Of a stretch of 42,455 nucleotides of DNA, positions 22,532 through 42,199 are shown in pieces. The notes under the pieces are model-generated. The model searched no databases. It saw only the letters and a program-made list of their open reading frames with translations, and had not been told where the DNA came from. How positions within the stretch are numbered: position 1 is the first letter of the stretch; each line of letters starts with the position of its first letter. The translations under genes and the position numbers were made by a program. This DNA comes from a virus: positions 1 through 42,455 of the IMG/VR virus record IMGVR_UViG_3300021962_006651. The stretch is one strand, 5' to 3'.

Positions 22532-22543
22532 ATCTTTTTATTA

Positions 22544-22551
22544 ATAAATAT
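22544..22551 (-). promoter_or_regulatory. ATATTTAT box (minus strand) before 21125-22531 gene
   Basis: On the minus strand this reads ATATTTATTAATAAAAAG, 12 bases before the start codon. It is the same extended element as on the plus strand. Confidence 0.5.
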
Positions 22552-22552
22552 C

Positions 22553-23866: not shown

Positions 23867-23868
23867 AT

Positions 23869-24057: not shown

Positions 24058-24061
24058 ACAT

Positions 24062-24466: not shown

Positions 24467-24477
24467 AATTTTATTTT

Positions 24478-26193: not shown

Positions 26194-26199
26194 AATTAA

Positions 26200-26580: not shown

Positions 26581-26595
26581 AACATTTGTTTTATT

Positions 26596-26603
26596 ATAAA
26601 TAT
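26596..26603 (-). promoter_or_regulatory. ATATTTAT box (minus strand) before tail unit
   Basis: On the minus strand this reads ATATTTATAATAAAAC, 15 bases before the start of the 126-aa gene. Confidence 0.48.
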
Positions 26604-26618
26604 CTTTCCTTTATTTTT

Positions 26619-27356: not shown

Positions 27357-27364
27357 AATTTTTA

Positions 27365-28141
27365 TTATACCTCATATGTTATTTCTCTGTCTTCAGTGAA
27401 AAAATATTCTTTCTTTGCTTTGTTTACCCAAAATTTACTTTCTAAAACATCGATAGTAGTCTTATATTCTACGAATAAAGAACCTTCTCTATTGTTAGTA
27501 TGTTTGTAACCCAATTTAGGGATAACCATAATAGGGATAGAAAGATAAGACATTCTTAATAAGAATTCGTAGGTGAATGTAAGTTTCATATTAGATTTTA
27601 GTCCACCATTTTCTAAGAATGTTTCTCGTTTAACAATCATCCCATCGAAGTTAAAATTTTGTACTCTTTGTAATGTATTATTATCTAGATAACCAATTTG
27701 TTCAGAAAAGTCTTTAGCCCAAACACTTTCGTTAGTAAATGAAATAAATCTACCATTTTCATCAGTTTCATATACTATTGGTAAAAATACCCCCACTTCA
27801 GGATATGATTTAATATAATCTAACCCATTTTTAATCCAAATAGGAGACACTTCATCATCATATTCTACAAAAGTAAAATAATCTCCAGTACTTTTTTCAA
27901 CACCATAATTAATTTGTGATTGGAAATCATAATTACCTGTCTCGTTTTCAATTACTTTAGTTACGTCTTTTAAATCTCCAAAGTCGTAATTATTTAAATA
28001 GTTTTTTATTGCCTCATCGTTTGATGTAACAAACAAAACTTCTGAAGGTTTAACCCTTTGTCCTTTAATACTCTCAATACATCCTACAATATAACTTTCT
28101 TCTAATTTGTGTACTGGTACTATTACTGTAATATTCGCCAT
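27365..28141 (-). CDS. Glycosyltransferase, GT2 (GT-A fold) type
   Basis: The N-terminus ITVIVPVHKLEESYIVGCIESI is the usual first strand and helix of a GT-A enzyme (key residues VPV and the C/SIxSI helix). A metal-binding acidic motif (EYDDE, in FTFVEYDDEVSPIW) lies near residue 90, and a later FDGMIVKRETFLENGG segment near 170 fits the acceptor-side region. The enzyme would move a sugar from a nucleotide-sugar donor to an unknown acceptor, probably a glycan or virion protein. It is soluble with no membrane anchor. The sigma-factor gene starts 8 bases after its stop. It forms a sugar-related pair with the GT-B enzyme upstream. Confidence 0.88.
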   Translation of the reverse strand: MANITVIVPVHKLEESYIVGCIESIKGQRVKPSEVLFVTSNDEAIKNYLNNYDFGDLKDVTKVIENETGNYDFQSQINYGVEKSTGDYFTFVEYDDEVSPIWIKNGLDYIKSYPEVGVFLPIVYETDENGRFISFTNESVWAKDFSEQIGYLDNNTLQRVQNFNFDGMIVKRETFLENGGLKSNMKLTFTYEFLLRMSYLSIPIMVIPKLGYKHTNNREGSLFVEYKTTIDVLESKFWVNKAKKEYFFTEDREITYEV

Positions 28142-28163
28142 TTTATATTTTATTTTTTAATTG

Positions 28164-28298
28164 TTATCTACCTTGTCCTCTATATTTTTTTTTATAAAGT
28201 TTACTAGTTTTTAATTTACTTCGTTTTGTTTTTGAGTGTACTCCTTTTCTTTTCCTTCTTGGGTTAGGTGAGTACGAATTAACTTGTCCTTTAGCCAT
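28164..28298 (-). CDS. Very basic 44-residue protein
   Basis: Reads MAKGQVNSYSPNPRRKRKGV and continues to a C-terminal YRGQGR. There are 17 Lys/Arg and no acidic residue, giving an extreme positive charge. The composition is that of a nucleic-acid-binding or ribosomal-type peptide, without any fold that can be named. The start overlaps the end of the upstream glycosyltransferase by 8 bases (ATGGCTAA), a geometry used at other junctions here, which supports it as real. It could condense DNA in the head, bind RNA polymerase or ribosomes; all of this is inference. I recall similar short 'KGQV...SPNPKRKRKGVH' proteins in other phages but cannot confirm a family name. Confidence 0.85.
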   Translation of the reverse strand: MAKGQVNSYSPNPRRKRKGVHSKTKRSKLKTSKLYKKKYRGQGR

Positions 28299-29430
28299 TT
28301 GTTTCGTTATTTTCAGTTGTTACTTCCTCTTTTTCTTTAAGTTGGGTATATGTGGTTTCTAATTCAACTACCCTCCTTTTAAAAATACCATCATAAACTT
28401 CAGAAAGAACTTTATCAGAATCTTCTACACTATATTTATCACCCCATTCTTTCATACCATTCATCACATTTTCAGGAAGAGCGTCTTCTAAGTACAACCC
28501 AACCATAGTTGCGATAATATCAGGAATTGCGTTCATATTAGGAGTCCAAATACCATTATCAACAAGATTTAAATTACCATTCTCATCAATATTACCCATC
28601 CATTCTGGTACCATTCTAGGAATTTTACCAATTACAGGTGTGTTAGATTTCATACATTCTAATGGGAATGTACCAAAACTAGAAAGTTCATCAACCCAAA
28701 CACCTAAGAAAGATTGACCCAATTCTTTTGCGAACGTTTCTCTAGGTAATCCTGACATATCTCTAAATGTTACAAATCTGTAGTGTGGATACTTTTGATA
28801 GAATACTTTCACAATTTTAAGTAATTCTCTTTTATCTCTCGCAACCATCGCCACTGTAGGGATTTTAGGTTTATCACTATCTTTAAAGAAAGATGGGATT
28901 CCCACAGGTACGATATCAGTTCTCATACCTCTAAAAACTGAATTAACATAATTACTAAGGTTTTGATTCGTAGTAATCACATCTCTAATACCAAATTGTT
29001 CCCAACCTTCACCGATCTCCAACATTTCAAATATGTATTCATATGATTGTACAAATACAATTCTTTTACAAGGGAAGTTTGCGGTTTGTTTAATAATACT
29101 TGCAAATGCTTCAGGTACTACAACAAAGTCAGAAGGACCAACTTGTAATTTTTGTGATTCGATAGAAACGTGTGGTAGGTTTGCATATTCTTCACCTAAC
29201 CATTCTGCGATACCCATACCTTCTTCATCTTCTCTAAGTTTATAATCATTCTTATCATGAAGAATTTGAGCGTTGTACCCTAAATCTCTTAATTTTTTTA
29301 CGTGTTCGTAAATTCTCGCAACACCTGCGGTTGGGTTACCTTTGGTGTCGATAGTAAAGAAATAAATACCAAAATCTTTGTTGTTAATTTTTTCGATACT
29401 ATTCTTAATTCTGTCTAATTGTTCACTCAT
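28291..29430 (-). CDS. Glycosyltransferase, GT-B fold (GT4-like)
   Basis: The protein (379 aa) has two Rossmann-like halves. The first contains GNPTAGVARIYEHVKKLRDLG, a typical acceptor-domain opening (key residues G-x-ARI, H-x-x-LRDLG). The second begins near PTVAMVARDKRELLKIVKVF and includes the donor-binding region VDELSSFGTFPLECMKSNTP with the E-x7-E arrangement (Glu in DEL and in LEC). Such enzymes take a nucleotide-sugar donor and retain the anomeric configuration. It is cytoplasmic with no membrane segment. It precedes the 44-aa basic protein with an 8-base overlap. Its acceptor is unknown; virion glycosylation is a possibility. Confidence 0.87.
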   Translation of the reverse strand: MSEQLDRIKNSIEKINNKDFGIYFFTIDTKGNPTAGVARIYEHVKKLRDLGYNAQILHDKNDYKLREDEEGMGIAEWLGEEYANLPHVSIESQKLQVGPSDFVVVPEAFASIIKQTANFPCKRIVFVQSYEYIFEMLEIGEGWEQFGIRDVITTNQNLSNYVNSVFRGMRTDIVPVGIPSFFKDSDKPKIPTVAMVARDKRELLKIVKVFYQKYPHYRFVTFRDMSGLPRETFAKELGQSFLGVWVDELSSFGTFPLECMKSNTPVIGKIPRMVPEWMGNIDENGNLNLVDNGIWTPNMNAIPDIIATMVGLYLEDALPENVMNGMKEWGDKYSVEDSDKVLSEVYDGIFKRRVVELETTYTQLKEKEEVTTENNETNG

Positions 29431-29450
29431 AACATTATTACTTTTTATTA

Positions 29451-29780
29451 TTATAATTCTTTAAGAATTCCTTTCATCAACAGAGTGTTAAAGGCAATCT
29501 TAAAAGGTATAGTTGCGTTGTTAAGTGCAACAACACCCATTTTATTATCTACTTCTTCGTTGTACATCATTATACCACCTATCAGTTCCCTATACATCTC
29601 GTATTTAGTTACGTCAATATGTAACCCACCTGTATCGGTAATAGGTTCTTCATCATCACCATCTTTTCCTTCATTTACTTTTATTGGAAGTGGTTCTTGT
29701 TCTATTCGAACTATTTCTGACAATCTGTCGATGTCGAGGTATAATTCTTTACCTCCAATTTCTAATAGTAAATTATCCAT
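29451..29780 (-). CDS. Hypothetical protein, 109 aa
   Basis: The product is not recognised. N-terminal residues (NLLLEIGGKELYLDIDRLSEIV) look like a small beta-hairpin and helix; an acidic linker (GKDGDDEEP) at about 38-47 divides it from a C-terminal helical half (YEMYRELIGGIMMYNEEVDNKM, LNNATIPFKIAFNTLLMKGIL). There are no Cys and no membrane segment. It lies between the HAD-like gene and the glycosyltransferase gene, 20 bases before the latter. Function cannot be guessed; it is kept because of its operon position and a clean open frame. Confidence 0.75.
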   Translation of the reverse strand: MDNLLLEIGGKELYLDIDRLSEIVRIEQEPLPIKVNEGKDGDDEEPITDTGGLHIDVTKYEMYRELIGGIMMYNEEVDNKMGVVALNNATIPFKIAFNTLLMKGILKEL

Positions 29781-29825
29781 ATGATTTTTTTATTAATTTA
29801 ACTTTATTTTTGTAATAAGTAAATA

Positions 29826-30443
29826 TTAAACGTCCTCGAACTCTATAGTTTCTGTACCTAATATTTTACCTAACAATTTTTTATCGTCTAATAATTCTTT
29901 TAAATCCACAATAGTATAATCAGAATTACACATTTTATTGTAAGTATTAATTACTTTTATAGAAACTTTATCTAATGGTTTAGAAACTAAAGTATCTGGT
30001 GACGCAGTAATTAAAACATCCACATGATCCCATTTATCTGAGTAATTTCTAACAAACTTTATTGTATTAACTTTACAAGATAACTTAGATAAAAAGAATA
30101 GAGTAGATGGTTTACTATTATTAAGTTCTTTACTGATAATAATAGGTTCATGACCTAAATCTTCAATTAAATTATGTAATTGATTTAAATGTTCTACTGA
30201 ATTAATTTTGGTTTCTCCAGCGTGTCCAAAAATCTCTAAAGATGAATCTACATACATAAATCTATTAAGTTCTTCAGTACCACCAGTAAATTTAAACCAC
30301 TTTAAAAGATCTAAATCTTTAATGTCTCTTTTAGGGGATTCTTCACCTTCTTCTAATTCTACTGGATAATACTTATCATAAACAGACTCAAATTTAGTAA
30401 TAAAGTCTCTGACTACACCGTCAACGGTTATCCCTATTCTCAT
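29826..30443 (-). CDS. HAD-like 5'(3')-nucleotidase homologue, catalytically degenerate
   Basis: The overall pattern is that of small HAD phosphatases of the deoxyribonucleotidase type. The first strand IGITVDGVVRDF matches the family's I-D-x-D-G-V but has Thr6 where the nucleophile Asp should be. The Ser/Thr and Lys motifs fit IIISKE (102-106) and SKPSTLFFLSK (110-120). The metal-binding DD motif is replaced by TA in DVLITASPDTL (142-152). So both acidic pairs are damaged, and hydrolysis by the usual mechanism is unlikely; a binding or regulatory role is more probable. The start overlaps the preceding 57-aa gene by 23 bases. Assignment is by pattern only. Confidence 0.7.
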   Translation of the reverse strand: MRIGITVDGVVRDFITKFESVYDKYYPVELEEGEESPKRDIKDLDLLKWFKFTGGTEELNRFMYVDSSLEIFGHAGETKINSVEHLNQLHNLIEDLGHEPIIISKELNNSKPSTLFFLSKLSCKVNTIKFVRNYSDKWDHVDVLITASPDTLVSKPLDKVSIKVINTYNKMCNSDYTIVDLKELLDDKKLLGKILGTETIEFEDV

Positions 30444-30594
30444 CTTTTTCTATTGTATAAATTTCTAATAATTGTCTTTTGTCTAATTTTTTTATAAGAC
30501 TAAAATATTCTAATGCAAATTCATAAGAATAACATTCTACAGAATTAATACATTCATTATCTTTTGTTTTTAAAGTATATTTTTTATCACTCAT
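30421..30594 (-). CDS. Hypothetical protein, 57 aa
   Basis: The product is not recognised. It reads MSDKKYTLKTKDNECINSVE and ends with DENRDNR; the middle is an amphipathic helix (YEFALEYFSLIKKL). It fills the space between the PhoH gene (start codon 3 bases after the PhoH stop) and the HAD-like gene, which it overlaps by 23 bases at its end. The otherwise empty gap and tight spacing support it as a real gene. Confidence 0.72.
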   Translation of the reverse strand: MSDKKYTLKTKDNECINSVECYSYEFALEYFSLIKKLDKRQLLEIYTIEKDENRDNR

Positions 30595-30597
30595 TTT

Positions 30598-31350
30598 TTA
30601 TTGGGGTTCTAAAGTTTCAAAAATTTCTTCGATTGTTTTAATTATTGGGTTTCTTACAACATCTTCAGGGTTTCTAAGTTCTACACAACCGAAACCTTCG
30701 ATATCCTTAAATTTTTCAATAACTACTTCTAATGAACTTTCTTTTTTATTTCTTAAGTCTTTTTGTTTGACATCACCCATAATAACCATTTTAGAATTAT
30801 CACCAATTCTCGTCATAAGGGTTCTAATATTTTCTAATGTGATATTTTGTGCCTCATCAATTAATATAATTGAGTTGTCAATACTTCTACCTCTGGCAAA
30901 TGCAATGGGAACTATTTCTATTACACCTAACTCTATTAGTTTTTCCATTCTACTTTTACCGATTAATTTTCTAATATTATCAGTAAAGGATTCCATAATA
31001 GGTGCCATCTTTTCTTTTAAATCACCAGGTAAGTGTCCAATTTCTTCATTTTTAAGTGGGGTAATAGATTTAACTAAAACAATTCTTTTATACCTTTCTT
31101 TAGTAGTCACTAACTTTATTGCCTCCGCACAAGATAAAAATGTCTTTCCTGATCCCGGTAATCCACTACATATTGTTATTTCATTATTTCTAATAGAGTC
31201 TATTAATTTTTTTTGGTTTTCTGTTTTACATTTTACGTTAATGGATATTGTTTTAAATAACTTCTCCTCTTCTACGTTTCTCCTGTTAAGGAATTCCTGC
31301 ATTTCGATAATATCTTCTTCAGGAATTTGTTTATTTCTTCTTCTACTCAT
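30598..31350 (-). CDS. phoH: PhoH-like ATPase
   Basis: The P-loop GLPGSGKT is at residues 63-70, Walker B IILIDEAQN at 161-169, and a sensor region MGDVKQKDL near 196. The KSITPLKNEEIGHLPGD segment after strand 2 is typical of the PhoH family (T-x-P-G-x-LPGD type). PhoH proteins are RNA-helicase or phosphate-stress-linked ATPases, very common in T4-like phages, with unclear function in phage growth. The N-terminus has a basic start (MSRRRNKQIPEE). At 250 residues it is of usual size. It precedes the 57-aa gene by 3 bases. No clear promoter was found upstream. Confidence 0.95.
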   Translation of the reverse strand: MSRRRNKQIPEEDIIEMQEFLNRRNVEEEKLFKTISINVKCKTENQKKLIDSIRNNEITICSGLPGSGKTFLSCAEAIKLVTTKERYKRIVLVKSITPLKNEEIGHLPGDLKEKMAPIMESFTDNIRKLIGKSRMEKLIELGVIEIVPIAFARGRSIDNSIILIDEAQNITLENIRTLMTRIGDNSKMVIMGDVKQKDLRNKKESSLEVVIEKFKDIEGFGCVELRNPEDVVRNPIIKTIEEIFETLEPQ

Positions 31351-31386
31351 ATAATAAATTTATTATATAATTATAATAATTAAAGT

Positions 31387-32361
31387 TTATTTACTATAAT
31401 ATTTTAACCAATATTCTATCATTTCGTCTAGCATAGTCTCAAAACTATATTTAGGCACCCACCCTAATTCACTCCTTAATTTAGTGGAATCACCTTTTAA
31501 ATCGTTTAGTTCCTCAGGTCTCATATGTTTACCAGAAATAACAATGTAATCTTTGTATTTTAAATTTAATTTAGTGAAGACATATTCACAAAGTTCTCTC
31601 ACAGAATGTGATACACCTGTTGCACAAACATAATCGTTAGGTTCATCTGTTTGTAACATCATCCACATCGCTTCAACATAATCTTTAGCGTGACCCCAAT
31701 CTCTTGTTGCGTCTAAATTACCTAAGTGTAAATTACCTTGTAAACCTAATTTAATTTTAACCGCAGCTTTAACAACTTTATTTGTTACAAAATTAGTACC
31801 CCTACGAGGAGATTCGTGGTTAAATAATATACCATTCCATATTTTCATCCCATATGAATTTCTATAATTTCTTGTAATATTATATGAAAAAACTTTCGCA
31901 CAACCATACGGTGATACAGGATTCATTGGTGTGGTTTCTCTTTGGAATCCATCTTTATCGGTATTATTACCAAACATTTCAGACGATGAAGCTTGATAAA
32001 TTTTAGAATTCGGTGAAACCATTCTAACTGCCTCCAATAAATTAAGTGTTCCCAATCCTGTGGCGTTTGCGGTATATAGTGGTTGATCAAAACTTACCCT
32101 AACATGAGATTGTGCAGCTAAATTATATATTTCATCTGGTTGTACTTTTTGTAAGACACTAACTAAAGATGCCATATCAGTTAAATCTGCATACTCTAAA
32201 TTTAATTTCTCAAAAATATGGTCAATTCTAACAGATTGTGTTTCTGACACAGAGTTTCTTTTAACTACACCCCAAACCTCATATCCCTTTTCTAATAAAA
32301 ACTCTGCAAGATAAGAACCATCTTGCCCGTTAATACCTGTTATTAGTGCTTTTTTACTCAT
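31387..32361 (-). CDS. gmd: GDP-mannose 4,6-dehydratase
   Basis: This short-chain dehydrogenase/reductase family enzyme turns GDP-D-mannose into GDP-4-keto-6-deoxy-D-mannose using bound NADP(H). The cofactor loop TGINGQDGSYLAE (GxxGxxG at 9-15), the RNS/NADP region VVKRNS, the catalytic SSSEMFG (125-131) and YGCAK (Tyr152, Lys156) are all present, as are NHESPRRG and NLDATRDWGHAKDYVEAMW near 190-235, which are strongly diagnostic of GMD. At 324 residues it is slightly shorter than bacterial GMD. Its start overlaps the ColD-like gene stop by 8 bases, so the two are co-translated. It supplies the first step of the sugar-nucleotide route encoded next to it. Confidence 0.96.
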   Translation of the reverse strand: MSKKALITGINGQDGSYLAEFLLEKGYEVWGVVKRNSVSETQSVRIDHIFEKLNLEYADLTDMASLVSVLQKVQPDEIYNLAAQSHVRVSFDQPLYTANATGLGTLNLLEAVRMVSPNSKIYQASSSEMFGNNTDKDGFQRETTPMNPVSPYGCAKVFSYNITRNYRNSYGMKIWNGILFNHESPRRGTNFVTNKVVKAAVKIKLGLQGNLHLGNLDATRDWGHAKDYVEAMWMMLQTDEPNDYVCATGVSHSVRELCEYVFTKLNLKYKDYIVISGKHMRPEELNDLKGDSTKLRSELGWVPKYSFETMLDEMIEYWLKYYSK

Positions 32362-33502
32362 ATTTGTTAATTATATTTATTATTTTATCCATATCTTTTT
32401 TTGATAAGTCTTGATGATTTGGTATATAAAAACCTTTTTTATCTAATAATTCGCAATTTTCTAAATTTTCTTTACTACCTTTCCACATTGGTTTGTTTGC
32501 CATATTACCAGCAATTAGGGGTCTTACTTCTATATCGTTATCCATTAAATCTCTAACAATATAATCTCTCATTTTATTTACGATTGGTATCGCAAAACTA
32601 GAAACGTAATCATTTTCTTTTTCTTTTAAATTTAATATGTTACTTTTTAAATTATCTATGTAGTATTTAAAATTTTCTCTTCTTTTTGATGAATAGTCGT
32701 CTAATTTATCTATAGCCCTTAAACCAATAAATGCTTGTAAATCAGTGGAACGAACATTCATACCTGGTAAATAAAAATTATATAATCCCTCAAAATCAGA
32801 ACAACCATAAGATTCTCTAATTTCTTTTTGTACTTTTTCAGGTAAATCTCTATCCCACCCATGACTTCTCATCATTAATAACTGGTGATAAAACCCTTCG
32901 TCATCAGTATTAATGAATCCACCCTCAATAGTAGATAAGTGGTGCCCAAAATACATTGAATAAAAAGAAGCAAAACCAAAAGATCCTAAATATTTACCTT
33001 GATATTTAGAACCCATACTCTCACAAACATCCTCTAACAATATTACTTCGTATTTTTCACACAAATCAATAACTTTTTCCATATTAGGGACTAAACCTAA
33101 AGGGGAAACTAAGATAAAAACTGATGGATTTTCTTTTATGAATAAATCTTCTAACTTTTTTAAATCACAAGATAAATCCTCTAAATTACAATCACACATA
33201 AAAGTGTCATAACCTAATAACATTGGTGAACTGACGTCAGTTGCCCAACTTAATGAAGGTACAACTATTTTAAGATTTTTTAATCTATTTGTTTCTTTAA
33301 GTGTAGCTAATGTTAATAAAATAGATGATGAACCAGAATTTACAAAAACTGAATATTTAGTTCCTATTTTTTTTGCCCATTTTTTTTCTAATTCCCAAGT
33401 TAACTCACCTTTAGTCAATCTAGGTATTTCATCTTGAGATAACCATTCTATTAGCGAATTTATATCCTCTCTGTCTATTGTATCACTTACTAATTTTATC
33501 AT
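32354..33502 (-). CDS. colD: GDP-4-keto-6-deoxymannose 3-dehydratase, ColD-like (PLP, His in place of Lys)
   Basis: This is a fold-type I PLP protein of the DegT/ArnB aminotransferase family. The residue that is normally the PLP-binding Lys is His here: residues 181-194 read YSMYFGHHLSTIEG, with His188. In ColD, a His at this position is the known hallmark that changes the reaction from transamination to C3 deoxygenation, giving GDP-4-keto-3,6-dideoxymannose. Other matches to E. coli ColD as I recall it are LLEDVCESMGSKYQGKYLGSFG, MRSHGWDRDLP, PGMNVRSTDLQAFIG and the C-terminal RPLIAGN and NHQ pieces. It lies between gmd and a GDP-fucose-synthase-like gene, so the context is right for a GDP-colitose-type sugar. 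ColD uses glutamate/PMP as amine source. Confidence 0.88.
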   Translation of the reverse strand: MIKLVSDTIDREDINSLIEWLSQDEIPRLTKGELTWELEKKWAKKIGTKYSVFVNSGSSSILLTLATLKETNRLKNLKIVVPSLSWATDVSSPMLLGYDTFMCDCNLEDLSCDLKKLEDLFIKENPSVFILVSPLGLVPNMEKVIDLCEKYEVILLEDVCESMGSKYQGKYLGSFGFASFYSMYFGHHLSTIEGGFINTDDEGFYHQLLMMRSHGWDRDLPEKVQKEIRESYGCSDFEGLYNFYLPGMNVRSTDLQAFIGLRAIDKLDDYSSKRRENFKYYIDNLKSNILNLKEKENDYVSSFAIPIVNKMRDYIVRDLMDNDIEVRPLIAGNMANKPMWKGSKENLENCELLDKKGFYIPNHQDLSKKDMDKIINIINKYE

Positions 33503-33514
33503 GTTTTTTTATTA

Positions 33515-33543
33515 ATTATAATATATTGCTTACCAAATGTAAA
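33515..33543 (-). promoter_or_regulatory. Promoter-like TTTACA-N17-TATAAT before colD
   Basis: On the minus strand TTTACA (33538-33543) and a perfect TATAAT (33515-33520) are 17 bases apart, the ideal sigma-70 type spacing, in the 44-base gap between colC-like and colD genes. Transcription would start just before the colD ATG at 33502. Confidence 0.5.
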
Positions 33544-33546
33544 TAA

Positions 33547-34455
33547 TTATTTTGATATTTTATTATATGTATTTTTAATACCTTCTTCTAATGTAGTGAA
33601 ACAGAAGTTAGGTAATAGAGATAATAATTTATTAGATGATACATCTTTTCTAAACTGTCCATCAGGTTTTTCTTTATCAAAATTAAATCTTTTAACATTT
33701 TTGGGGTTTATCGTTTTAAAAACAATATCTGCAATTTCTTTTATAGATAAATTTTCATTAGTTGCTACGTTAAAACTTTCATATATTTCATTATCAATAC
33801 ATAACTTTATAATTTTCGCCAAATCATTAGAATACATAAATTGTCTTAATGGTTTGCCAGTACCAAAAAGATTAACTATTTCTTCTCCATTTTTATCCGC
33901 AATAATTATTTTTTTTAATAAAGCTGCAACAAAATGACTGTTGTCCCCCCATTTGTCATACTCACCATATAAATTACATGGAATTAGATATTGGTATTTT
34001 GTCCCGTATTGTTTATTGTATGCATCTATCTGAACTGCAAGACTTCTTTTTGCATATCCATAACTAAAGTTTGTGGGTGTAGGTGGACCTAAATGTAACA
34101 CATCTTCAGTCATAGGATATTCATCTACTTTGTCAGGATAAATACATGTAGATAATATACCTATAAATCTTTTAACATTATATTTATATGACAACCGTAA
34201 TAAATTAGTATTCATTAATACATTATCATCAAAATATTCGGCAGGTTTATTAATATTATCCATTATACCACCTACTTTTGCGGCTAAATGAATAATAACA
34301 TCAGGTTTATGTTTTTTAATTAACAATTCTGTTTCTAATGGATTGGTTAAATCACAATCTTTAGACGATAGATATATTGCATTGGACATAATATCTTTTA
34401 AAGACCTACCTACCATACCACTTCCACCAGTGACTAATATTTTTTTATCATACAT
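33547..34455 (-). CDS. GDP-L-colitose/GDP-L-fucose synthase-type epimerase-reductase
   Basis: This NADPH-dependent SDR-family enzyme is like GDP-L-fucose synthase (Fcl) and GDP-L-colitose synthase (ColC), which both epimerise C5 (and C3 in Fcl) and reduce C4. The cofactor loop TGGSGMVGRSL is at 9-19. HLAAKVGGIMDN (56-67), the catalytic STCIYP (102-107), TNFSYGYAKRS (128-138) with Tyr132 and Lys136, and CNLYGEYDKW follow the Fcl pattern closely. Sequence alone does not separate Fcl from ColC. The adjacent ColD homologue favours ColC (GDP-colitose), while the GT10 and GT11 fucosyltransferases would also suit GDP-fucose. Both products could be made from the same gmd output. The upstream sulfotransferase gene ends 5 bases before it. 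Confidence 0.88.
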   Translation of the reverse strand: MYDKKILVTGGSGMVGRSLKDIMSNAIYLSSKDCDLTNPLETELLIKKHKPDVIIHLAAKVGGIMDNINKPAEYFDDNVLMNTNLLRLSYKYNVKRFIGILSTCIYPDKVDEYPMTEDVLHLGPPTPTNFSYGYAKRSLAVQIDAYNKQYGTKYQYLIPCNLYGEYDKWGDNSHFVAALLKKIIIADKNGEEIVNLFGTGKPLRQFMYSNDLAKIIKLCIDNEIYESFNVATNENLSIKEIADIVFKTINPKNVKRFNFDKEKPDGQFRKDVSSNKLLSLLPNFCFTTLEEGIKNTYNKISK

Positions 34456-34460
34456 AATTT

Positions 34461-35075
34461 TTAAAATTTATATTTACAATAATCTATAATTCCTTTTTCG
34501 TGCTGATATATTTTATCTTTTGTTTTTTCTGAAAAAAAATAATCTCTATATGACTTATGTGTTGACGTGTTTATTTTTATAATGTCAACGTCATTAATTT
34601 TATAAATGTTTAAATAACTATTAACCTCATTATTTATATCTTCTAACTTTAAAACGTCTACAACAATATTATCTAATTCATCAATTAAATATTTTATTTG
34701 TGGTCTAAAAAAATCCCTTGTATCATTTGTATATATATCCACAAAATCATCAAAAGTTAAAGAATGTTCATTAATTTTTTTGTGTATGTCAGGTGCTCCA
34801 CAACCTGGGTTTTGTTGTATATAACTATAAAAAGATACTGCTCTATCCCAAGGATTTCTAGATACTGCGAAATACTTTCTATCCAACTCTTTTTCGAATA
34901 GTCTATACGTTTCTAAATATGTATGGTGGTATATAAATCTTTCATTTGGTCTTTTTGTATTATTTTTTATATATGGGTTGTATCCCCTAAAAGATTCTGA
35001 TATAGAAGTACCTCCGTTTTTAGGTATGTGGATAAAAACAACTTCGTTACCTTTAAAATTAAAAACAAAACTCAT
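34461..35075 (-). CDS. Sulfotransferase
   Basis: This enzyme moves sulfate from PAPS to a hydroxyl, probably on a glycan. The 5'-phosphosulfate loop FIHIPKNGGTSISESF is at residues 14-29 (key residues PK-GGTS) and the 3'-phosphate-binding SRNPWDRAVSFY at 72-83, both as in the Sulfotransfer_2 family. At 204 residues it is compact, with no membrane anchor. It sits inside the sugar gene run, next to an FkbM methyltransferase, so sulfated and methylated sugars are expected products. The host must supply PAPS. Confidence 0.92.
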   Translation of the reverse strand: MSFVFNFKGNEVVFIHIPKNGGTSISESFRGYNPYIKNNTKRPNERFIYHHTYLETYRLFEKELDRKYFAVSRNPWDRAVSFYSYIQQNPGCGAPDIHKKINEHSLTFDDFVDIYTNDTRDFFRPQIKYLIDELDNIVVDVLKLEDINNEVNSYLNIYKINDVDIIKINTSTHKSYRDYFFSEKTKDKIYQHEKGIIDYCKYKF

Positions 35076-35081
35076 ATTTTT

Positions 35082-35768
35082 TTATTTTTCATATCTAAAT
35101 AAACAATCTGCGGGTGTTTTTTCTACTATTTTATACCCTAAATTAATCATTAAATTTATTAAGTCTTCAGGATTATGTGAATTTTCTCCATAATATTTTT
35201 TACCTAAATAAGTTTCCATCCATATTAGTTTAGGTCTTATTTCACCCAATCCTTTAATTGCTTTATATTCAACACCCTCAACATCCATATGTAAAAAATC
35301 TATTTCTTTAATATTATTTTTTTCGCAAAAACTTTTTAAAGTTATACATTCTATTTCTATTGGGGATTGTTCTTCTATATGTTTAAAAGTATTTTTATAT
35401 AAATCAGTTCTTTTATTTATCGAACCAGAACTACCGTATTTTTTTTCATCGTCTAATACGTTAGGATCTTTTACTTGATAAAAAATTGTTTGACCATCAT
35501 AATCACTTATGGCATAATTAAAAGTTTTAATTTTAAAAGACTCACCATTATTTTTAACAATTTTATACCTTTCAGGACATGCCTCAATAGAATATACTGA
35601 ACAATTAGGGTATGCCTGTTTATAATAAACACCATCACCACAATCATAAGAACCAAACTCAATCAATGTTTTTGGTTCGTGACCTAAATACTTGTTTATC
35701 CAACCCACATTAAATTCACTTTTATACATTTTTATACCATTTACAGTATAATTTCTAAAATCACCCAT
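35082..35768 (-). CDS. FkbM-family SAM-dependent methyltransferase
   Basis: The SAM-binding segment IEFGSYDCGDGVYYKQ (residues 36-51 or so) and the acidic VYSIEACPERYKIVKNN that follows match the class I methyltransferase core. ISDYDGQTIFY and IDFLHMDVEGVEYKAIKGL (key residues D-E-G-E-A-KG) are typical of the FkbM family, which O-methylates sugars and other small molecules. It is 228 residues, soluble. Its start overlaps the GT10 stop by 8 bases (ATGGGTGA), giving translational coupling. It is probably an O-methyltransferase for the glycan made here. Confidence 0.93.
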   Translation of the reverse strand: MGDFRNYTVNGIKMYKSEFNVGWINKYLGHEPKTLIEFGSYDCGDGVYYKQAYPNCSVYSIEACPERYKIVKNNGESFKIKTFNYAISDYDGQTIFYQVKDPNVLDDEKKYGSSGSINKRTDLYKNTFKHIEEQSPIEIECITLKSFCEKNNIKEIDFLHMDVEGVEYKAIKGLGEIRPKLIWMETYLGKKYYGENSHNPEDLINLMINLGYKIVEKTPADCLFRYEK

Positions 35769-36570
35769 TTTTAATTTTTTCTTTTATAATTTTTATTAAT
35801 CTTTCCTCTAAAGAAGAATAACCCATAGATTTTAAATAATTTTCTTCCACATATGGTAACATTTTTTCGTAAGTTTCAGATGTTAAACTATTACAAACAT
35901 TTATTACTTCTGATTCATTATTACAAATAAACATACCATCTATATTGAACCAATCATTTATATTAGGACAACCCAAATAAATGGGTATAGTTTTAGTCTG
36001 TAAAGAATCAATTAATTTTTCTGTGAACCAATTACGTCTAAAAGTATTTTCAATTATAATACTAAATTGAGAATTAAATAGTGGGTCCTTTTTTTGTCCT
36101 AGAACAGGGTTATTGTTACGATTATGTAAACCACCCTTAAAATTACCACTTATGTAGAAATTCGTTTTTATGTTCTTTATTTCATTTTGTCTATCCCATA
36201 ATTTTTGTCTCACAATATGACCATGTGCCATCCTTTTACCACCTACTAAAGTAGACACAGAAAATTCTTTTTCAGGAAAATTATAATCTTTTATCCATGT
36301 AGAAGCTAATGGAAAATTTACTGAGTTTTTACAATTATCTAATAACTCTTGATTATGTGTTAGTAAGTAATTATAAAATCCTGCATTATATGATTGCAAT
36401 GATCTTTGACTTAAGTTAATTATCTCAGGTGGTTCTAAAAGAAATAAAAATCTTAAAGTATTCGGTGGTACTGGATTATTAGGTATGTGGTCAACATATA
36501 ATTCTATTTGTTTTTCACTAAAAAAATCAAACTTAAGACCCCAACCGCAAAATATTTTTATGTTTTTCAT
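35761..36570 (-). CDS. Fucosyltransferase, GT10 family
   Basis: Residues 169-208 hold the alpha-1,3/4-fucosyltransferase signature: FSIIIENTFRRNWFTEKLID (key residues F-x-ENT, TEKL) then IPIYLGCPNINDWFN, equivalent to the 'ENS...YVTEK...VPVYxG' motif of GT10. It transfers fucose from GDP-fucose, and closely related enzymes can accept GDP-colitose-type donors. The 269-residue length is short but complete for bacterial members. The gene overlaps its upstream neighbour by 4 bases and its downstream neighbour by 8. With the GT11 gene nearby and the GDP-sugar route downstream in the same run, it is a likely consumer of the phage-encoded donor. Confidence 0.9.
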   Translation of the reverse strand: MKNIKIFCGWGLKFDFFSEKQIELYVDHIPNNPVPPNTLRFLFLLEPPEIINLSQRSLQSYNAGFYNYLLTHNQELLDNCKNSVNFPLASTWIKDYNFPEKEFSVSTLVGGKRMAHGHIVRQKLWDRQNEIKNIKTNFYISGNFKGGLHNRNNNPVLGQKKDPLFNSQFSIIIENTFRRNWFTEKLIDSLQTKTIPIYLGCPNINDWFNIDGMFICNNESEVINVCNSLTSETYEKMLPYVEENYLKSMGYSSLEERLIKIIKEKIKNG

Positions 36571-37421
36571 TTAATAAATTTTTTAGTCAATTCATATTCG
36601 TCATTATTAAAAGGAATATCAATATCTTTATCATAAAAAAGTTTTAAATAAAGACTATACCTATTTTTAGCCCATTCTACATATGTTTTAGGTACATTAC
36701 CCGATCCGTTTATATGGAAATTCATACCTGAACCTATACCCGCAAAATGAATTATTTTTTTTCCATAATCATATAAAGTATTCATTTCCAAAAACCCATT
36801 ATCAAAGTTATTATTTTCGTCACAAGAACCATAGTCAGTAAAAGATAAATACTTTATTTTACCCCCATTGTACAATATATCAAAAGATACAGGGTCAAAG
36901 AAATCTATTATTTTATGGTTGTAAGGATTAAAAGTCCCTTGACACATCCTCCACACATTATTAAATTCCCTATTAGTTATTTTATTTAGATTGACACCAA
37001 TAAAAAATGTAGACACTACATCTTTTAAATTTGGTATTGTTTTATATGATCTCCTCGCACCTATTAAATCATAACCTTCATTAAAAGATGTAAATATATC
37101 ATTTAGACATTCATTTAAAAAAATGACATCACTATCTATTTGTATGATTTTACTGTAATTACCATATTTTTTAGTAACTACATTCGCCCATATATATGAA
37201 GTACCTAAATGTCCATTTTTATATGATGATGTTAGTACTTCATCGTCAGACAAATCGATGAACACGTTATTTTTGTGATTATCAATGTTACTAAAGTCAG
37301 ATTTTTTACCAAATATATGTATCGGATGGTTGTGATATTTATGATAACTTTCTAAACATTTATTCGCAATTAAACCACAATTGTAACATATTAAAAATAT
37401 AAATGTATCATGATTTTCCAT
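36567..37421 (-). CDS. Glycosyltransferase, GT-A fold with DSD motif
   Basis: This 284-residue soluble protein has the DxD motif IQIDSDVIFLNEC near residue 95 and a two-Cys, aromatic-rich C-terminal half. The N-terminus (DTFIFLICYNCGLIANKCLESYH) is a Rossmann-like start. The later GSCDENNNFDNGF and IIHFAGIGSGMNFH residues fit the acceptor and metal His sites of GT8-type or related enzymes. Precise family is not sure. It overlaps the next gene (GT10) by 4 bases and the previous gene by 14, so it is part of the sugar operon and is likely to add one sugar of the glycan. Confidence 0.82.
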   Translation of the reverse strand: MENHDTFIFLICYNCGLIANKCLESYHKYHNHPIHIFGKKSDFSNIDNHKNNVFIDLSDDEVLTSSYKNGHLGTSYIWANVVTKKYGNYSKIIQIDSDVIFLNECLNDIFTSFNEGYDLIGARRSYKTIPNLKDVVSTFFIGVNLNKITNREFNNVWRMCQGTFNPYNHKIIDFFDPVSFDILYNGGKIKYLSFTDYGSCDENNNFDNGFLEMNTLYDYGKKIIHFAGIGSGMNFHINGSGNVPKTYVEWAKNRYSLYLKLFYDKDIDIPFNNDEYELTKKFIK

Positions 37422-38295
37422 ATAAGTTTTTTTTGTATTGTAAGAATTCTATTTTTTTATTATTAACCAAACCTTTATATTTATTATGTATACTAGACAT
37501 ATAACTAAAGTTAGGGTTAGAATGATGTAAAATAGGATGGTTCATATGATATAATTCATTATGTGGATTTTCACATATTTTTATGTTTGTTAGAGTACTT
37601 AATTTTTCCCAAAAAAAGGCATCTTCAGGAGCATAAGAGTGAAAAAATTCAGGATCATATCCACCAACCTCAAAGAAAATTTCAGATTCTACAGATATTG
37701 ACCCACCAGGTGCACCAAAATATTGTGGTAGGGAAACTCCCTCACTATTTTCTTTTAAATCATTAACATCTAATTCTTCTCTTATTATTAAGTCAGTTAA
37801 AAAATCATTTAAATATAAAACTCTTCTTTTATGAAATGTTTGTATAGCTTTAGTATTTTCAGTAGTATTTTCTAATAAATTTTTAAAAAAATCTTTTTGT
37901 ACCAAGCAATCTAAATCGTGAAATACGTACCACTTAGATGGTTTGGTATTTATTACAGATAAATTGTATGACAAACACTTATTAAATACACCACCTTTAG
38001 AATTAAAATATAAATAATTAATACCTAAATCGTCACAATTTTTTTCATGTTCTTTTAAATTAGAATGTTCTAATAGTGTAAGTTGTATTTTTTTATCTAC
38101 TTCTTTTGTGGCTTTTATTACTGAACTGAAGAGTGGTTTAGAAAAATTTTGTCTTCCCCTAGCAGTAATAATAAAATTGTAATCGTAAATTTCCTCTTTG
38201 TAAACAATTTTCTTATATAATTTATCAGACAAATCATTATAATCGATTGGGTTATTTTTACAAATATCTTTTAATTGTTCTAAATTACTAACCAT
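37408..38295 (-). CDS. Glycosyltransferase, GT2-like with galactosyltransferase-type C-terminal domain
   Basis: The N-terminal GT-A part begins after a ~40-residue extension with YDYNFIITARGRQNFS, and the metal-binding motif is VFHDLDCLV near residue 142-150. The C-terminal segment GAPGGSISVESEIFFEVGGY followed by DPEFF and a PEDAFFWEKL ending matches the Glyco_transf_7C type domain (conserved GG...F...GGYDxxF...ED) that binds donor or acceptor. It overlaps its neighbours by 14 and 16 bases. It is one of at least four sugar transferases in the run and acts on an unknown acceptor. Confidence 0.86.
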   Translation of the reverse strand: MVSNLEQLKDICKNNPIDYNDLSDKLYKKIVYKEEIYDYNFIITARGRQNFSKPLFSSVIKATKEVDKKIQLTLLEHSNLKEHEKNCDDLGINYLYFNSKGGVFNKCLSYNLSVINTKPSKWYVFHDLDCLVQKDFFKNLLENTTENTKAIQTFHKRRVLYLNDFLTDLIIREELDVNDLKENSEGVSLPQYFGAPGGSISVESEIFFEVGGYDPEFFHSYAPEDAFFWEKLSTLTNIKICENPHNELYHMNHPILHHSNPNFSYMSSIHNKYKGLVNNKKIEFLQYKKNLYGKS

Positions 38296-39050
38296 TTTTC
38301 TGAGTATATATCTTTAGTTATTATATTACCTTTAGCTGGGCCAAACCATTTTTTAGGGGCAATTACTTTTTTATTAATATTCTGATTTAACCAAGCCCCC
38401 CACCAACTAAATGAAGAGTTTGCAATTATATTGTTATCACACATCGACATTAAATACATTTCAATATAATCATTTTCATTTTCAACATAATAAGAATTTT
38501 TTATATGTAAATTTTCTTTACACCAATTTATATCATCAGAAAATATTATATATGTAGTATCGTTATTAAAATTTTTGATTGCCTCTTCATAATATGTTTT
38601 TTCACATAAAGGGTGATGGTTTTGTACTTTTAAATAATCACCTCTTCTTACATGAATTGAGCAATTATTGTTTTTTAATATATTTCCATATTTTTTTTCT
38701 ATATAATCTAAATCATTTTTAGTCGGTTGGAATAATTTAATTATCTCGTCTCTATTATGTGAGAAATATTTTTCGCTTTGGAAGTACCCAACTAAAAGGG
38801 TATCACCATCCACATTAATTTTATTATACCCAAAAGAAGGTTCATTATATATGTTTAAAAAATTATGGTGACTTATAAAAGATACATTTTTAAAAATATT
38901 TTGTTTATAGTCATTAATACTTTTATGCACTTTAACTGCATTGTCACTTATAAAAGAACATTTAAAATTAAAGTCTAATGAGAGTGAATATGCAACAGAT
39001 ATCTGAAACATATAATTACCCAATCCACCTTGTAAAAAAGTACTAATCAT
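38280..39050 (-). CDS. Alpha-1,2-fucosyltransferase, GT11 family
   Basis: Motif I HVRRGDY is at residues 133-139 of the 256-aa form, and SSFSWWGAW at 212-220 is the second family signature. N-terminal FLQGGLGNYMFQ (residues 5-16) binds the donor. GT11 enzymes transfer fucose from GDP-fucose to a galactose 2-OH, and some members of this family use GDP-colitose. The start at 39050 (ATGATTAG overlap of 8 bases with the upstream stop) is chosen over an upstream in-frame Met because GT11 proteins begin near the QGGLGNQ-type loop. The gene is in the same run as the phage's own GDP-sugar genes. Confidence 0.93.
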   Translation of the reverse strand: MISTFLQGGLGNYMFQISVAYSLSLDFNFKCSFISDNAVKVHKSINDYKQNIFKNVSFISHHNFLNIYNEPSFGYNKINVDGDTLLVGYFQSEKYFSHNRDEIIKLFQPTKNDLDYIEKKYGNILKNNNCSIHVRRGDYLKVQNHHPLCEKTYYEEAIKNFNNDTTYIIFSDDINWCKENLHIKNSYYVENENDYIEMYLMSMCDNNIIANSSFSWWGAWLNQNINKKVIAPKKWFGPAKGNIITKDIYSEKWLVI

Positions 39051-39774
39051 TTTTATTAATTCTTTCTCTTGGAGTTTTATTTTTTGTATATTGTACCATT
39101 TTATTAATTTTAGGCATATATTGTTTGTGTTCATTAAATGGGTTAGTGTCATTATAAATATAATTTATTTCAGTCATAAATTTATAATGTTCTAAACCAG
39201 ACATTTCGAACATGTCGTACATAAAAATTAAATCACAAGCCGCTGACCACCAATTACCATTTTCATCTCTTAAATCTGATTCTTTAATATTTCTCCATAA
39301 AAATATCTTCCAAGTTCTTAAATGTGATGCAGTATATGGCCCATGTCTTAATTTACTAATATCAGTAACTGGTTGTGAAAACCCCATTCTACCATCGGAG
39401 TATTTAAAACAACCATTTGCAATCCATATATCCCCACTATTATAATGATCAATAACCCTCTCAAATACTTTATTATCAGGTAACCAATCATCTCCGTCTA
39501 CTTCTACAAATATATCTTCATCATCAATACCTTCAGTATCCCTACAAATCAAATCATAATTACCACCTTGATATCTTTTTTCTTTATTTCTAATTAAAAT
39601 AAATCTATCATCACCTTTTATAAAATTCTCCACAACGTCCGCAGAATTATCGGTAGAAATATCATCAGTGATATAACATACAAAATTTTTATATGACTGA
39701 GACATTATAGACGCTAATGTTTTTTCTACAACATCTGCACTATTATATAAAGTTACACCTACTACTATTTTCAT
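39043..39774 (-). CDS. Glycosyltransferase, GT2 family
   Basis: A clear GT2 enzyme: KIVVGVTLYNSADVVEKTLASI (VTLYN, L-SI), ITDDISTDNSADVVENF (the DD-ST-D nucleotide-binding part), and VEVDGDDWLPDN with the DGDD metal motif near residues 92-95. The acceptor domain includes GNWWSAACDLIFMYDMFE, as in family 2 transferases with a 'W..D' catalytic region. At 243 residues it is complete. It overlaps the preceding gene by 4 bases and GT11 by 8. Substrates are unknown. Confidence 0.93.
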   Translation of the reverse strand: MKIVVGVTLYNSADVVEKTLASIMSQSYKNFVCYITDDISTDNSADVVENFIKGDDRFILIRNKEKRYQGGNYDLICRDTEGIDDEDIFVEVDGDDWLPDNKVFERVIDHYNSGDIWIANGCFKYSDGRMGFSQPVTDISKLRHGPYTASHLRTWKIFLWRNIKESDLRDENGNWWSAACDLIFMYDMFEMSGLEHYKFMTEINYIYNDTNPFNEHKQYMPKINKMVQYTKNKTPRERINKND

Positions 39775-41414
39775 ATCACACTATTATATTCTTCTATTAT
39801 TTCAGAAACTATGTTTTCTGATTTATATTTTTCTACATCAGAAGGAACATCATTCAATTCCTTACTTAATATATTTCCTTGTTCATCTATCTGATATATC
39901 CATCCAGATTTACCACATAACCACCCTTCTATTGTAGTTCTACCCATAAGTATACTCGCAGTTTCCTCACATTCTTTTACATAACGCTCAACATCCCAAG
40001 TAGACTCATAGTATTTTACATTATCATTAGTTAATAAGTCATTTAAATAATCTGATTTATTTGTACCAACTAACCAAAGTTGTTTACCATTTTCTTTTGT
40101 ATATTCTACTAAATCGTAAATTGTATTTTTTCTTAGATAATCTATAGTCCCAACAAATAGAACAAAAGGTTTTGTTTTAACATTTTCATAAACTTTAAAT
40201 CTATCACTATCTATAGGATTATGTATCACACTAATTTTATCTTCTGATATATCCCATCCATTTTTAACAAAATCTTTAATACTTTCTCTAATAGTAATAT
40301 ATTTTTTTACTTTGTCATCTACAACAGGTTCTTCTAAATTAGGTATAACTTCAGAATGTATTGTATTAATGAAAGTTAAATTAGGGTATAGTTTTATTAA
40401 ATGTTCACCTATAGGTTTGTGATTAATATGTACTACATCATATTTCACATCACTCACTTTATATAACTTACCTTGTTCCGATAATACAGGTCCATTATTT
40501 GTGTTTAAAACCCATTTACCATCACCTAATTTAAATCCTGGTGGTTCTTGTATTGGATAACAATTGACACCATACTTTTTAATTCTTTGCACCATTTTAG
40601 GTCCAATATTAGAAACGATATCTACCTCACAATTTTGTTTGGTTAATTCTTTCGCCAATTCATAAACATGTAATTCCGATCCTGTGTAATCATTAAATAA
40701 TAAACACCCTATAAGGACTTTCATTTTATTATTTTTACCAAAATACTTTTTAGATTTAACGGGTAAAACATCTTTAAATTTTTCAGAAAATTCTTTTCTA
40801 TTATTTTCCCATTGTTCATTAGTCTGCCCTATAGATAAATGAGTCACGTCAATATCAGATGAAACACCAACTTTAACGCCTTCTAAATAATTTCTAAAAC
40901 AAAAGTCAACTTCATAAAAATGAAAACCTTTAACCTCTTCGTCAAAATTAACTTTTATTTTATTTTTATCTACTGCGAAAAATAAACCGTCTACTATCAC
41001 GACATTATCTAAAAAATTAGGTTTCTTTGGTGAATATTTAGACAACCACCTATTACCATTGTGTTTGTGAAATACTTGTCCATACATATGTAATGGATTT
41101 TCCCACCACATACCAGATTTAGGTATCTCTCTAGATCCTGCAATACCTATAATCCCGTATTCTTCGTTATTGTTAAAAGATTTTAACAATTTTTTACCCC
41201 AATTATTAGTCTCAAAGATAATATCATCATGACAAAAAACCACAATATCGTTAGTAGTTTCTTTTAACGCTTTGTTATAAAGTTCTGTAAGGGAATATTC
41301 ACCATTGTTTATATACTGAATAACCTCTAGTCCTTTATGGATTCCAGAGGTTTTCTTAATATGTTCTATATGTTTTTGATTATCTACCCTAGTAGAAAAT
41401 ACAACACTAATCAT
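39771..41414 (-). CDS. Two-domain glycosyltransferase (GT-A plus GT-B, 547 aa)
   Basis: The N-terminal half (about 1-225) is a GT2-like domain. ISVVFSTRV starts a first strand, NDIVVFCHDDIIFETNNWGK carries the DD metal motif near 56-67, and SIGQTNEQWENNRKEFSEKF ends it. The C-terminal half (about 235-547) is a GT4-like GT-B enzyme beginning MKVLIGCLLFNDYTGSELHVYELAKEL (key residues L-F-DYTG, LHVYELAKEL) with VLFVGTIDYLRKNTIYDLVEYTKE (V-G-LRKN), and TASILMGRTTIEGWLCGKSG as the donor site. Such fusions make two linked sugars in one polypeptide. It overlaps both neighbours by 4 and 8 bases and is the first large gene of the sugar run. Confidence 0.9.
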   Translation of the reverse strand: MISVVFSTRVDNQKHIEHIKKTSGIHKGLEVIQYINNGEYSLTELYNKALKETTNDIVVFCHDDIIFETNNWGKKLLKSFNNNEEYGIIGIAGSREIPKSGMWWENPLHMYGQVFHKHNGNRWLSKYSPKKPNFLDNVVIVDGLFFAVDKNKIKVNFDEEVKGFHFYEVDFCFRNYLEGVKVGVSSDIDVTHLSIGQTNEQWENNRKEFSEKFKDVLPVKSKKYFGKNNKMKVLIGCLLFNDYTGSELHVYELAKELTKQNCEVDIVSNIGPKMVQRIKKYGVNCYPIQEPPGFKLGDGKWVLNTNNGPVLSEQGKLYKVSDVKYDVVHINHKPIGEHLIKLYPNLTFINTIHSEVIPNLEEPVVDDKVKKYITIRESIKDFVKNGWDISEDKISVIHNPIDSDRFKVYENVKTKPFVLFVGTIDYLRKNTIYDLVEYTKENGKQLWLVGTNKSDYLNDLLTNDNVKYYESTWDVERYVKECEETASILMGRTTIEGWLCGKSGWIYQIDEQGNILSKELNDVPSDVEKYKSENIVSEIIEEYNSVI

Positions 41415-41620: not shown

Positions 41621-42199
41621 TTATTGTTTACCAGTTGATCCAAATCCACCTTCACCTCTTTCGGTTTCAGATAGATTATTAACCCTAACCAATTTACTTA
41701 TACCTTGTCCTACAACATTCATAATCACCCCTTGTGCAATTCTTTCACCTGGTTGTATTGTATAATCTTCATTACTTAGATTTACCGCTATTACACCAAC
41801 TTCACCTCTATATCCTTCATCCACAGTTCCAGGTGTGTTTAAAACAGAAATACCATACTTTAACGCCATACCACTTCTTGGTCTAACTTGTAATTCTGTA
41901 TTCGTTGACAACTCAAACTTTAATCCTGTTGGTATTAGTTTTCTTTCTAATGGTTTTAGAGTTACAGGTTCAGAGATAAACGCTCTTAAATCAAAACCAC
42001 TATCACCTACCTTTGCGTATTCTGGATCAGGATTATTAGAATTATTAGTGAACTTAGTCTCTATTTTAAAATCATCAAAATTAAAGGAAGTGTCAAAATC
42101 TGAAGTGTTAAAATTTTCATTAGAACTTAATGACTCTAACTGATTCATTAGATTTTTTAACTCATTTAATTCATTCATCTGTTGATCTAAATTGTCCAT
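41621..42199 (-). CDS. dut: dUTP diphosphatase (trimeric dUTPase)
   Basis: All five dUTPase motifs are in order: DSGFDLRA (66-73), RPRSGMALKYGI (106-117), NTPGTVDEGYRGEVGVI (121-137), PGERIAQGVI (150-159) and RGEGGFGSTG (181-190). It hydrolyses dUTP to dUMP and PPi, keeping uracil out of phage DNA and supplying dUMP for dTMP. A ~45-residue Asn/Glu-rich N-terminal extension (residues 1-45, with coiled-coil pattern DQQMNELNELKNLMNQLESL) is not part of the usual enzyme (about 150 aa). Its role is unknown; it may link to another protein or modify trimer contact. It starts 2 bases before the CDGSH gene ends, on the same strand. Confidence 0.97.
   Translation of the reverse strand: MDNLDQQMNELNELKNLMNQLESLSSNENFNTSDFDTSFNFDDFKIETKFTNNSNNPDPEYAKVGDSGFDLRAFISEPVTLKPLERKLIPTGLKFELSTNTELQVRPRSGMALKYGISVLNTPGTVDEGYRGEVGVIAVNLSNEDYTIQPGERIAQGVIMNVVGQGISKLVRVNNLSETERGEGGFGSTGKQ

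Follow-up and report, generated by a model that had tools for sequence, protein, structure and literature searches.

What does a packed run of glycosyltransferase and sugar-tailoring genes make in an uncultured T4-like phage from water, and which molecule receives the product? The run lies on the minus strand of the viral record IMGVR_UViG_3300021962_006651, all 42,455 bases of which were analysed (hereinafter, the window); matches to the T4-type families of large terminase, portal, protease and major head protein identify the phage as T4-like. The question bears on why phages carry many glycosyltransferases and on what those enzymes decorate. Comparison with related phages leaves very little doubt that the run belongs to a glycan cassette that occupies an exchange site between the genes for dUTPase and PhoH and is replaced, whole or in part, between relatives. 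With moderate confidence, we propose that this cassette is the variable part of a phage glycan assembly, located at the fixed dUTPase-island-PhoH site and acting on virion proteins.

Cassette exchange between dUTPase and PhoH

The island is delimited by two conserved genes:

41621..42199, minus strand, dUTPase, conserved left border of the island (PF00692, E=5e-25)
30598..31350, minus strand, PhoH, conserved right border of the island (PF02562, E=3e-62)

The dUTPase occupies the same position in the relatives (45-80% identity), and PhoH is 62-91% identical in relatives that carry different cassettes at this site. The genes beyond and including the borders are constant: on the left, a glycosyltransferase of about 418 amino acids, a phosphohydrolase-like protein and dUTPase; on the right, PhoH, two small proteins, a GT-B glycosyltransferase (28291 in the window), a GT2 glycosyltransferase (27365) and a sigma factor. 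The cassette enclosed by these genes varies in content and spans about 6-21 kb, border genes included. Four relatives (G007, G015, G006 and G032) share 56-91% identity with the window in the neighbouring genes, yet most of their island genes have no counterpart in it. An earlier note on this DNA had asked for a search for the same gene set in related phages: the same site is indeed occupied in the relatives, but with a different cassette content. The hypervariability of the cassette at a fixed site and the exchange of donor types described below, both seen in the relatives, had escaped that note. The dUTPase-PhoH exchange site appears to be new.

Replacement of parts of the cassette can be traced in three comparisons. 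The sister contig G001 (L175) is near-identical to the window over 31 kb (about 10 differing positions in that length, and 8 over the 21.8 kb of window 1019-22821), except that about 55 of the 57 mismatches over window 20601-32458 fall in the last ~1 kb, which covers the gene for GDP-mannose 4,6-dehydratase (GMD) and the end of the gene for a ColD-type sugar dehydratase; the contig ends at this divergent stretch (window 31387-32458). Judging from the alignment, the divergence at GMD is the footprint of a recent recombination at the island edge. The GMD and ColD genes are 87-88% identical to those of phage G025, the flanking genes of which are only 33-67% identical to those of the window, so that the donor module can be taken to move between distant phages. 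Finally, the fused glycosyltransferase at 39771 has a conserved N-terminal part of ~220 amino acids and a C-terminal half that is swapped in many relatives: G007, G015, G020, G017, G025 and G026 match the N-terminal domain only (40% coverage), and G032, L188, L192 and L218 match over the full length.

Two observations concern individual loci. In L190 (10001-10668), PhoH is apparently split into two overlapping open reading frames (ORFs), possibly by a frameshift, and in G020 (L272:1593-2171 and 4190-4939) there are genes for a membrane protein of the MarC family and an intramembrane protease of the PrsW family.

Island genes and the GDP-sugar donor

In the window, the cassette comprises the following genes:

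39771..41414, minus strand, fused GT2_5 and GT4 glycosyltransferase, first large gene of the island (PF13712, E=1e-30; PF13439, E=2e-12)
39043..39774, minus strand, GT2 glycosyltransferase (PF00535, E=1.6e-17)
38280..39050, minus strand, GT11, alpha-1,2-fucosyltransferase family (PF01531, E=3e-26, 92.7 bits versus a cut-off of 23.9)
37408..38295, minus strand, GT2/galactosyltransferase-like GT-A (weak PF13641 and PF02709; phrog_1721 galactosyl transferase, 4e-4)
36567..37421, minus strand, divergent GT-A (IQIDSDV, a DxD motif; homologue at PF00535, E=9e-5)
35761..36570, minus strand, GT10-like, alpha-1,3/4-fucosyltransferase family (PF00852, 21.2 bits, under the 23.9-bit cut-off)
35082..35768, minus strand, FkbM-type O-methyltransferase (PF05050, E=7e-18)
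34461..35075, minus strand, sulfotransferase (PF03567, E=1.8e-6, above cut-off)
33547..34455, minus strand, short-chain dehydrogenase/reductase (SDR), 4-keto reductase/epimerase, probably GDP-colitose synthase in the ColC role (PF01370)
32354..33502, minus strand, ColD-type GDP-4-keto-6-deoxymannose 3-dehydratase (match to 2gms, E=1e-58; His for the lysine that binds pyridoxal phosphate, PLP)
31387..32361, minus strand, GMD, right end of the island (PF16363, E=3e-123)

The eight-gene run at 34461-41414 was the subject of the earlier note, and all eight ORFs are present, intact and tightly packed. They had been described as all overlapping, which is accurate for junctions that overlap by 4-16 nt but not for the sulfotransferase and methyltransferase genes, which are 6 nt apart. 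Pfam supports the proposed sulfotransferase, FkbM methyltransferase, GT11, one GT2 and the GT2_5-GT4 fusion; for GT10 and the two further GT-A/GT2-like genes (37408 and 36567), the support comes from motifs and better-scoring homologues. Because the run passes without a border into the SDR, ColD-type and GMD genes at 31387-34455, the functional unit is, by gene arrangement, the region 31387-41414, in which donor genes, transferases and tailoring enzymes appear as one packed unit; the proposed linkage of dideoxy-sugar genes to the transferases is thereby borne out, with GMD, the SDR and a 3-dehydratase that has the diagnostic His.

Several assignments merit comment. The PF01531 match of GT11 begins at residue 23 of the long ORF, the alignments with most viral homologues do not begin before about residue 30-35, and the gene probably starts at 39050 rather than at 39152. 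The 37408 protein alone is only weakly GT2/galactosyltransferase-like; its homologue in L206 passes PF10111. For the 36567 protein, the Pfam search gave no match of its own, and the AlphaFold (AF2) model was too poor for use (predicted local distance difference test, pLDDT, 45.6); the motif DSDVIF is invariant across four of its homologues. We file the 35761 protein as GT10-like: its donor-binding motif region (residues 135-214) aligns with solved alpha-1,3-fucosyltransferases (E=1e-5), it matches at E=5e-84 a phage profile of which it is itself a member, and other phages carry homologues up to ~60% identical. An iterated search from the sulfotransferase yielded a phage family of 20 ORFs, and profile searches found no tail-fibre family among the proteins of the window island.

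The best solved match of the DegT protein, the gene of which overlaps the GMD gene, is ColD (2gms; 202 bits versus 96 bits for perosamine synthase). Its HH motif aligns with that of 2gms, placing a His where the PLP-binding Lys is expected; the same His is found in all ColD-group phage proteins checked, and Lys in two more distant DegT proteins. Perosamine synthase, considered as an identity for this protein, was ruled out by the active-site residue. The nearest solved enzyme to the SDR is GDP-L-fucose synthase, but the SDR belongs to a clade that is found together with ColD and is distinct from the one found with GMD only. The donor sugar is probably of the colitose type, that is, GDP-colitose. 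In the predicted pathway, GMD would convert host GDP-mannose to GDP-4-keto-6-deoxymannose, the ColD-type enzyme would remove the 3-hydroxyl, and the SDR would epimerise and reduce the product to GDP-L-colitose; GT10 and GT11 would then attach colitose onto a chain made by the GT2 and GT4 enzymes, and the chain would be O-methylated and sulfated.

The same three enzyme types, encoded by adjacent genes, form the bacterial GDP-colitose pathway (GMD-ColD-ColC), examples of which are those of E. coli O55 and O111, where the pathway lies in O-antigen loci with flippase and polymerase. The phage ColD proteins differ in forming a clade of their own, which appears to be new; a pattern-limited scan for a bacterial source of the ColD group returned only matches of 37-42% identity. 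Literature searches for colitose in phages returned nothing in the papers covered. A 642-kb uncultured phage, LR756502 (L275), encodes a fucose-synthase-like SDR adjoining a ColD-type protein, and further homologues of GT11 and another DegT protein of the His type.

The donor module itself varies among the relatives, which have GMD, ColD and SDR, GMD with an SDR of a different clade, or none. Clade comparison of the phage loci reveals three SDR groups. The window-type SDR lies directly upstream of ColD and GMD, with the apparent exceptions of L060 (a ColD fragment at the contig end), L061 (near a contig end) and L042 (ColD ~10 kb away); the second group also accompanies ColD, whereas in 11 of 12 phage cases an SDR of the third group is accompanied by GMD and ColD is lacking. 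We read these groups as colitose-type and fucose-type modules. Many loci were fetched through ColD, which introduces a bias; the pattern also holds in loci fetched via GT11 and PhoH.

The complete islands comprise 11 distinct ones; all 7 with a GMD-based donor and none of the 4 without one contain GT10 (exact p = 1/330, ~0.003, computed by hand; the completeness of the L208 island was judged from the gene comparison of the relatives), and for GT11 the counts are 6 of 7 and 0 of 4, respectively. For islands fetched by neither ColD nor GT11, the counts are 4/4 with a donor versus 0/4 without (p = 1/70, ~0.014). Given this confinement, GT10, GT11 and the GDP-6-deoxysugar donor travel together, and such an exchange of donor type jointly with GT10/GT11 appears to be new. 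In the GT11 phylogeny, colitose labels cluster more than shuffled ones, and donor type is followed only loosely; as a test of donor specificity the phylogeny was rejected, the window GT11 having neighbours of both types.

The rapid turnover of cassettes and the many genes without homologues among the relatives are also what a hotspot of captured bacterial O-antigen genes would produce, if these hitchhiked with no common function and no adaptive value. This explanation is, in our estimate, extremely improbable: the ORFs are all intact and tightly packed, the donor module and GT10/GT11 co-occur, the SDR clade tracks the presence of ColD, and the large distance of the phage ColD clade from the closest bacterial matches found suggests equipment that phages have kept for a long time.

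Core transferases and the acceptor

Outside the island, the window encodes two further transferases:

28291..29430, minus strand, core GT-B glycosyltransferase (no Pfam match; profile match to AmGGT, 8xsg, E=2e-21)
27365..28141, minus strand, core GT2 glycosyltransferase (PF00535, E=9e-16), adjoining the sigma factor in relatives

Another conserved glycosyltransferase (phrog_7162; L162:3504-4760 and orthologues) lies, in the relatives, two genes upstream of dUTPase, past what is the right end of the window. The GT-B at 28291 is kept at 27-91% identity in all relatives that cover the region. Its structural model was the best obtained (pLDDT 88.8), with 8xsg as the top Foldseek match (E=2e-14), and by profile and model it resembles the Actinobacillus Agt/GGT family, the closest member being AmGGT of Actinobacillus minor. 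In the cytoplasm, a homologue of AmGGT, ApAgt, elongates the Asn-linked glucose that adhesins carry (PMC12159676). Searches of 50,697 isolate phage records with the 28291 and fused 39771 proteins returned no match, and the core-transferase set, of which these are the two members tested, appears to be new.

Divergent relatives retain several of the core transferases whatever the cassette, which suggests an acceptor that is encoded by the phage rather than specific to the host. Under the reading that we prefer, the conserved transferases (28291, 27365, the N-terminal domain of 39771 and the 418-residue enzyme that relatives encode upstream of dUTPase) would supply a constant inner glycan and the island genes a variable outer one, and cassette exchange would alter the 'serotype' of the particle surface.

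The earlier note had reported that no polymerase or flippase is present, and had taken this as an argument for virion glycosylation. The absence, which a 42-kb fragment alone could not establish, does extend to the islands of 29 loci and to six larger relatives. By hydropathy, the islands of the 29 loci encode no protein with many membrane-spanning segments, whereas the same script detects proteins with 7-11 segments in bacterial ColD loci; the counts in G025 and G020 reached six at most, for a protein of the MarC family and a large one of no assigned family. Neither a Wzx-type flippase (PF01943) nor an initiating phosphoglycosyltransferase (PF02397) was found in the six relatives (88-254 kb) with positive controls in use. 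Soluble acceptors such as virion proteins are therefore favoured. The argument from the absence holds to that extent only: host lipid-linked units are assembled on the cytoplasmic face and could use a host flippase, making one of phage origin unnecessary.

This is the setting in which the cassette might instead remodel the host surface, with O-antigen, lipopolysaccharide (LPS) units or capsule precursors modified in the cytoplasm and exported by the host flippase, thereby blocking superinfection. The genes resemble those for O-antigen synthesis, and colitose is a known O-antigen sugar. We consider this reading a serious rival but the less likely one, in view of the lack of a flippase, Wzy or initiating transferase in the islands and of the core transferases kept across divergent phages; furthermore, a lytic phage would gain little from a full donor pathway in a short infection, superinfection exclusion being a possible benefit. 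That virion proteins are the acceptor we put at slightly better than even.

Expression bears on the same choice. The motif ATATTTAT lies 12-70 nt (mostly 20-37 nt) upstream of several structural genes in 11 of its 29 occurrences (p ~2e-9 for this placement, the motif having been chosen after inspection). Sites of this type span window 2718-26603, e.g., 9019, 10998, 14821 and 16223 on the plus strand and 22551 and 26603 on the minus strand, and recur before orthologues and other genes in the relatives. We regard it as a candidate late promoter that would be read by the gp55-like sigma factor of the phage (gene at 26619-27356). In some relatives, the motif precedes a gene for a protein of 593-692 amino acids, from which transcription could proceed toward the island. 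The canonical T4 late promoter TATAAATA, tried as an alternative, is not enriched (12 observed versus 14.6 expected).

Several results weigh against a virion acceptor or against the proposal more broadly. In the window, ATATTTAT does not precede any island gene, which fits host-surface remodelling better than late, virion-linked expression. No GT41/HMW1C N-glucosyltransferase (PF13844) was found in the six larger relatives, where only Agt/GGT-like GT-B enzymes are present, and neither an acceptor protein nor an enzyme initiating a protein glycan was identified. AmGGT requires free oligosaccharides, not glycopeptides (PMC12159676). The nearest relatives of the window GT11 include both colitose-type and fucose-type islands. 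For comparable gene sets, the authors of PMC7029224 and PMC9602691 prefer a host-surface role. Lastly, the records of the relatives, which were found via terminase, PhoH, dUTPase or ColD, may be incomplete.

Glycosylation of DNA is a third candidate, since T4-like phages place sugars on DNA, as in the arabinosylation by RB69 (PMC6024577), and DNA glycans of other kinds are made by some of them (Pyle 2024, cited in PMC12619734). Sugars on hydroxymethylated bases, as in T-even phages, seem very unlikely here. Matches to PF00303 in 4 of 18 records, which may be incomplete, are of thymidylate-synthase strength (up to 330 bits), and no second, hydroxymethylase-like copy was found in these records; known DNA-glycosylation sets, moreover, do not resemble islands that have a sulfotransferase, an FkbM methyltransferase and as many as ~20 swapped genes each.

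More tentatively, the virions of the clade may be coated with a colitose- or fucose-capped, methylated and sulfated glycan, and this coat may be switched by recombination at the dUTPase-PhoH site that exchanges cassettes together with their donor pathway. Should the virion be what carries the coat, cassette exchange would change the surface chemistry of the phage independently of tail fibres. Closely related cores with fucose-type, colitose-type or no donor form a natural comparison set, on whose virions, host LPS and DNA a predicted one-sugar difference could be sought.

The phage and known glycan clusters

The nearest isolates, Microcystis phage Mel-JY01 and Flavobacterium phage immuto, are distant (terminase ~27-29% identical), and the major head protein also matches Rhodothermus phage RM378. 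A nucleotide search of the right-hand 24 kb (window 18000-42455) against isolate phages matched nothing. Only 4 of 39 window genes have a Shine-Dalgarno-like leader, and this scarcity together with the nearest isolates makes a Bacteroidota host a reasonable guess, and no more.

Glycan clusters as a category are already known from cyanophages and pelagimyophages. T4-like marine phages of these groups have hypervariable glycosyltransferase islands in the form of the host recognition cluster (HRC; PMC7029224), which shares with the window island its hypervariability and richness in glycosyltransferases, deoxysugar genes being present in the same genomes. The HRC, however, lies between VrlC and gp14 with tail fibres, whereas the window island lies between dUTPase and PhoH, has no recognised tail fibre and includes a linked, complete GDP-6-deoxysugar donor module. 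Cyanophage S-SCSM1 likewise has a phage GMD with a fucose synthase and an alpha-1,2-fucosyltransferase, interpreted as modifying the cell wall; the available part of that report describes neither ColD nor donor exchange (PMC9602691).

In mycobacteriophages, glycans are observed on the capsid and tail tube, and glycosyltransferases of the phages are believed to modify virion proteins (Freeman et al. 2023, cited in PMC12619734), whereas for the window phage a glycan is predicted from genes. The Moraphages, large phages of aquatic origin that are also uncultured, likewise have several core glycosyltransferases, PhoH and predicted Bacteroidota hosts, but are described as a separate jumbo lineage (up to 307 kb), for which the excerpted text describes no glycan exchange island (PMC12619734).

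Cyanophage ACG-2014f_Syn7803C8 (NC_047713, 155.9-165.9 kb) has, in one run, two epimerases, a ColD-like protein, glycosyltransferases, a methyltransferase, an epimerase and a galactose-3-O-sulfotransferase, and other ACG-2014f records match the window GT11 in the same cluster region. The differences are a ColD only ~32% identical, another gene order, and nearby photosynthesis-related and tail fibre genes in place of dUTPase and PhoH borders. The NC_047713 protein annotated as an aminotransferase (L274:7968-9161) bears the His typical of ColD (GHHMTTIEGG) and probably acts as a sugar 3-dehydratase, which suggests that some DegT 'aminotransferases' of phages, such as that of ACG-2014f, are 3-dehydratases.

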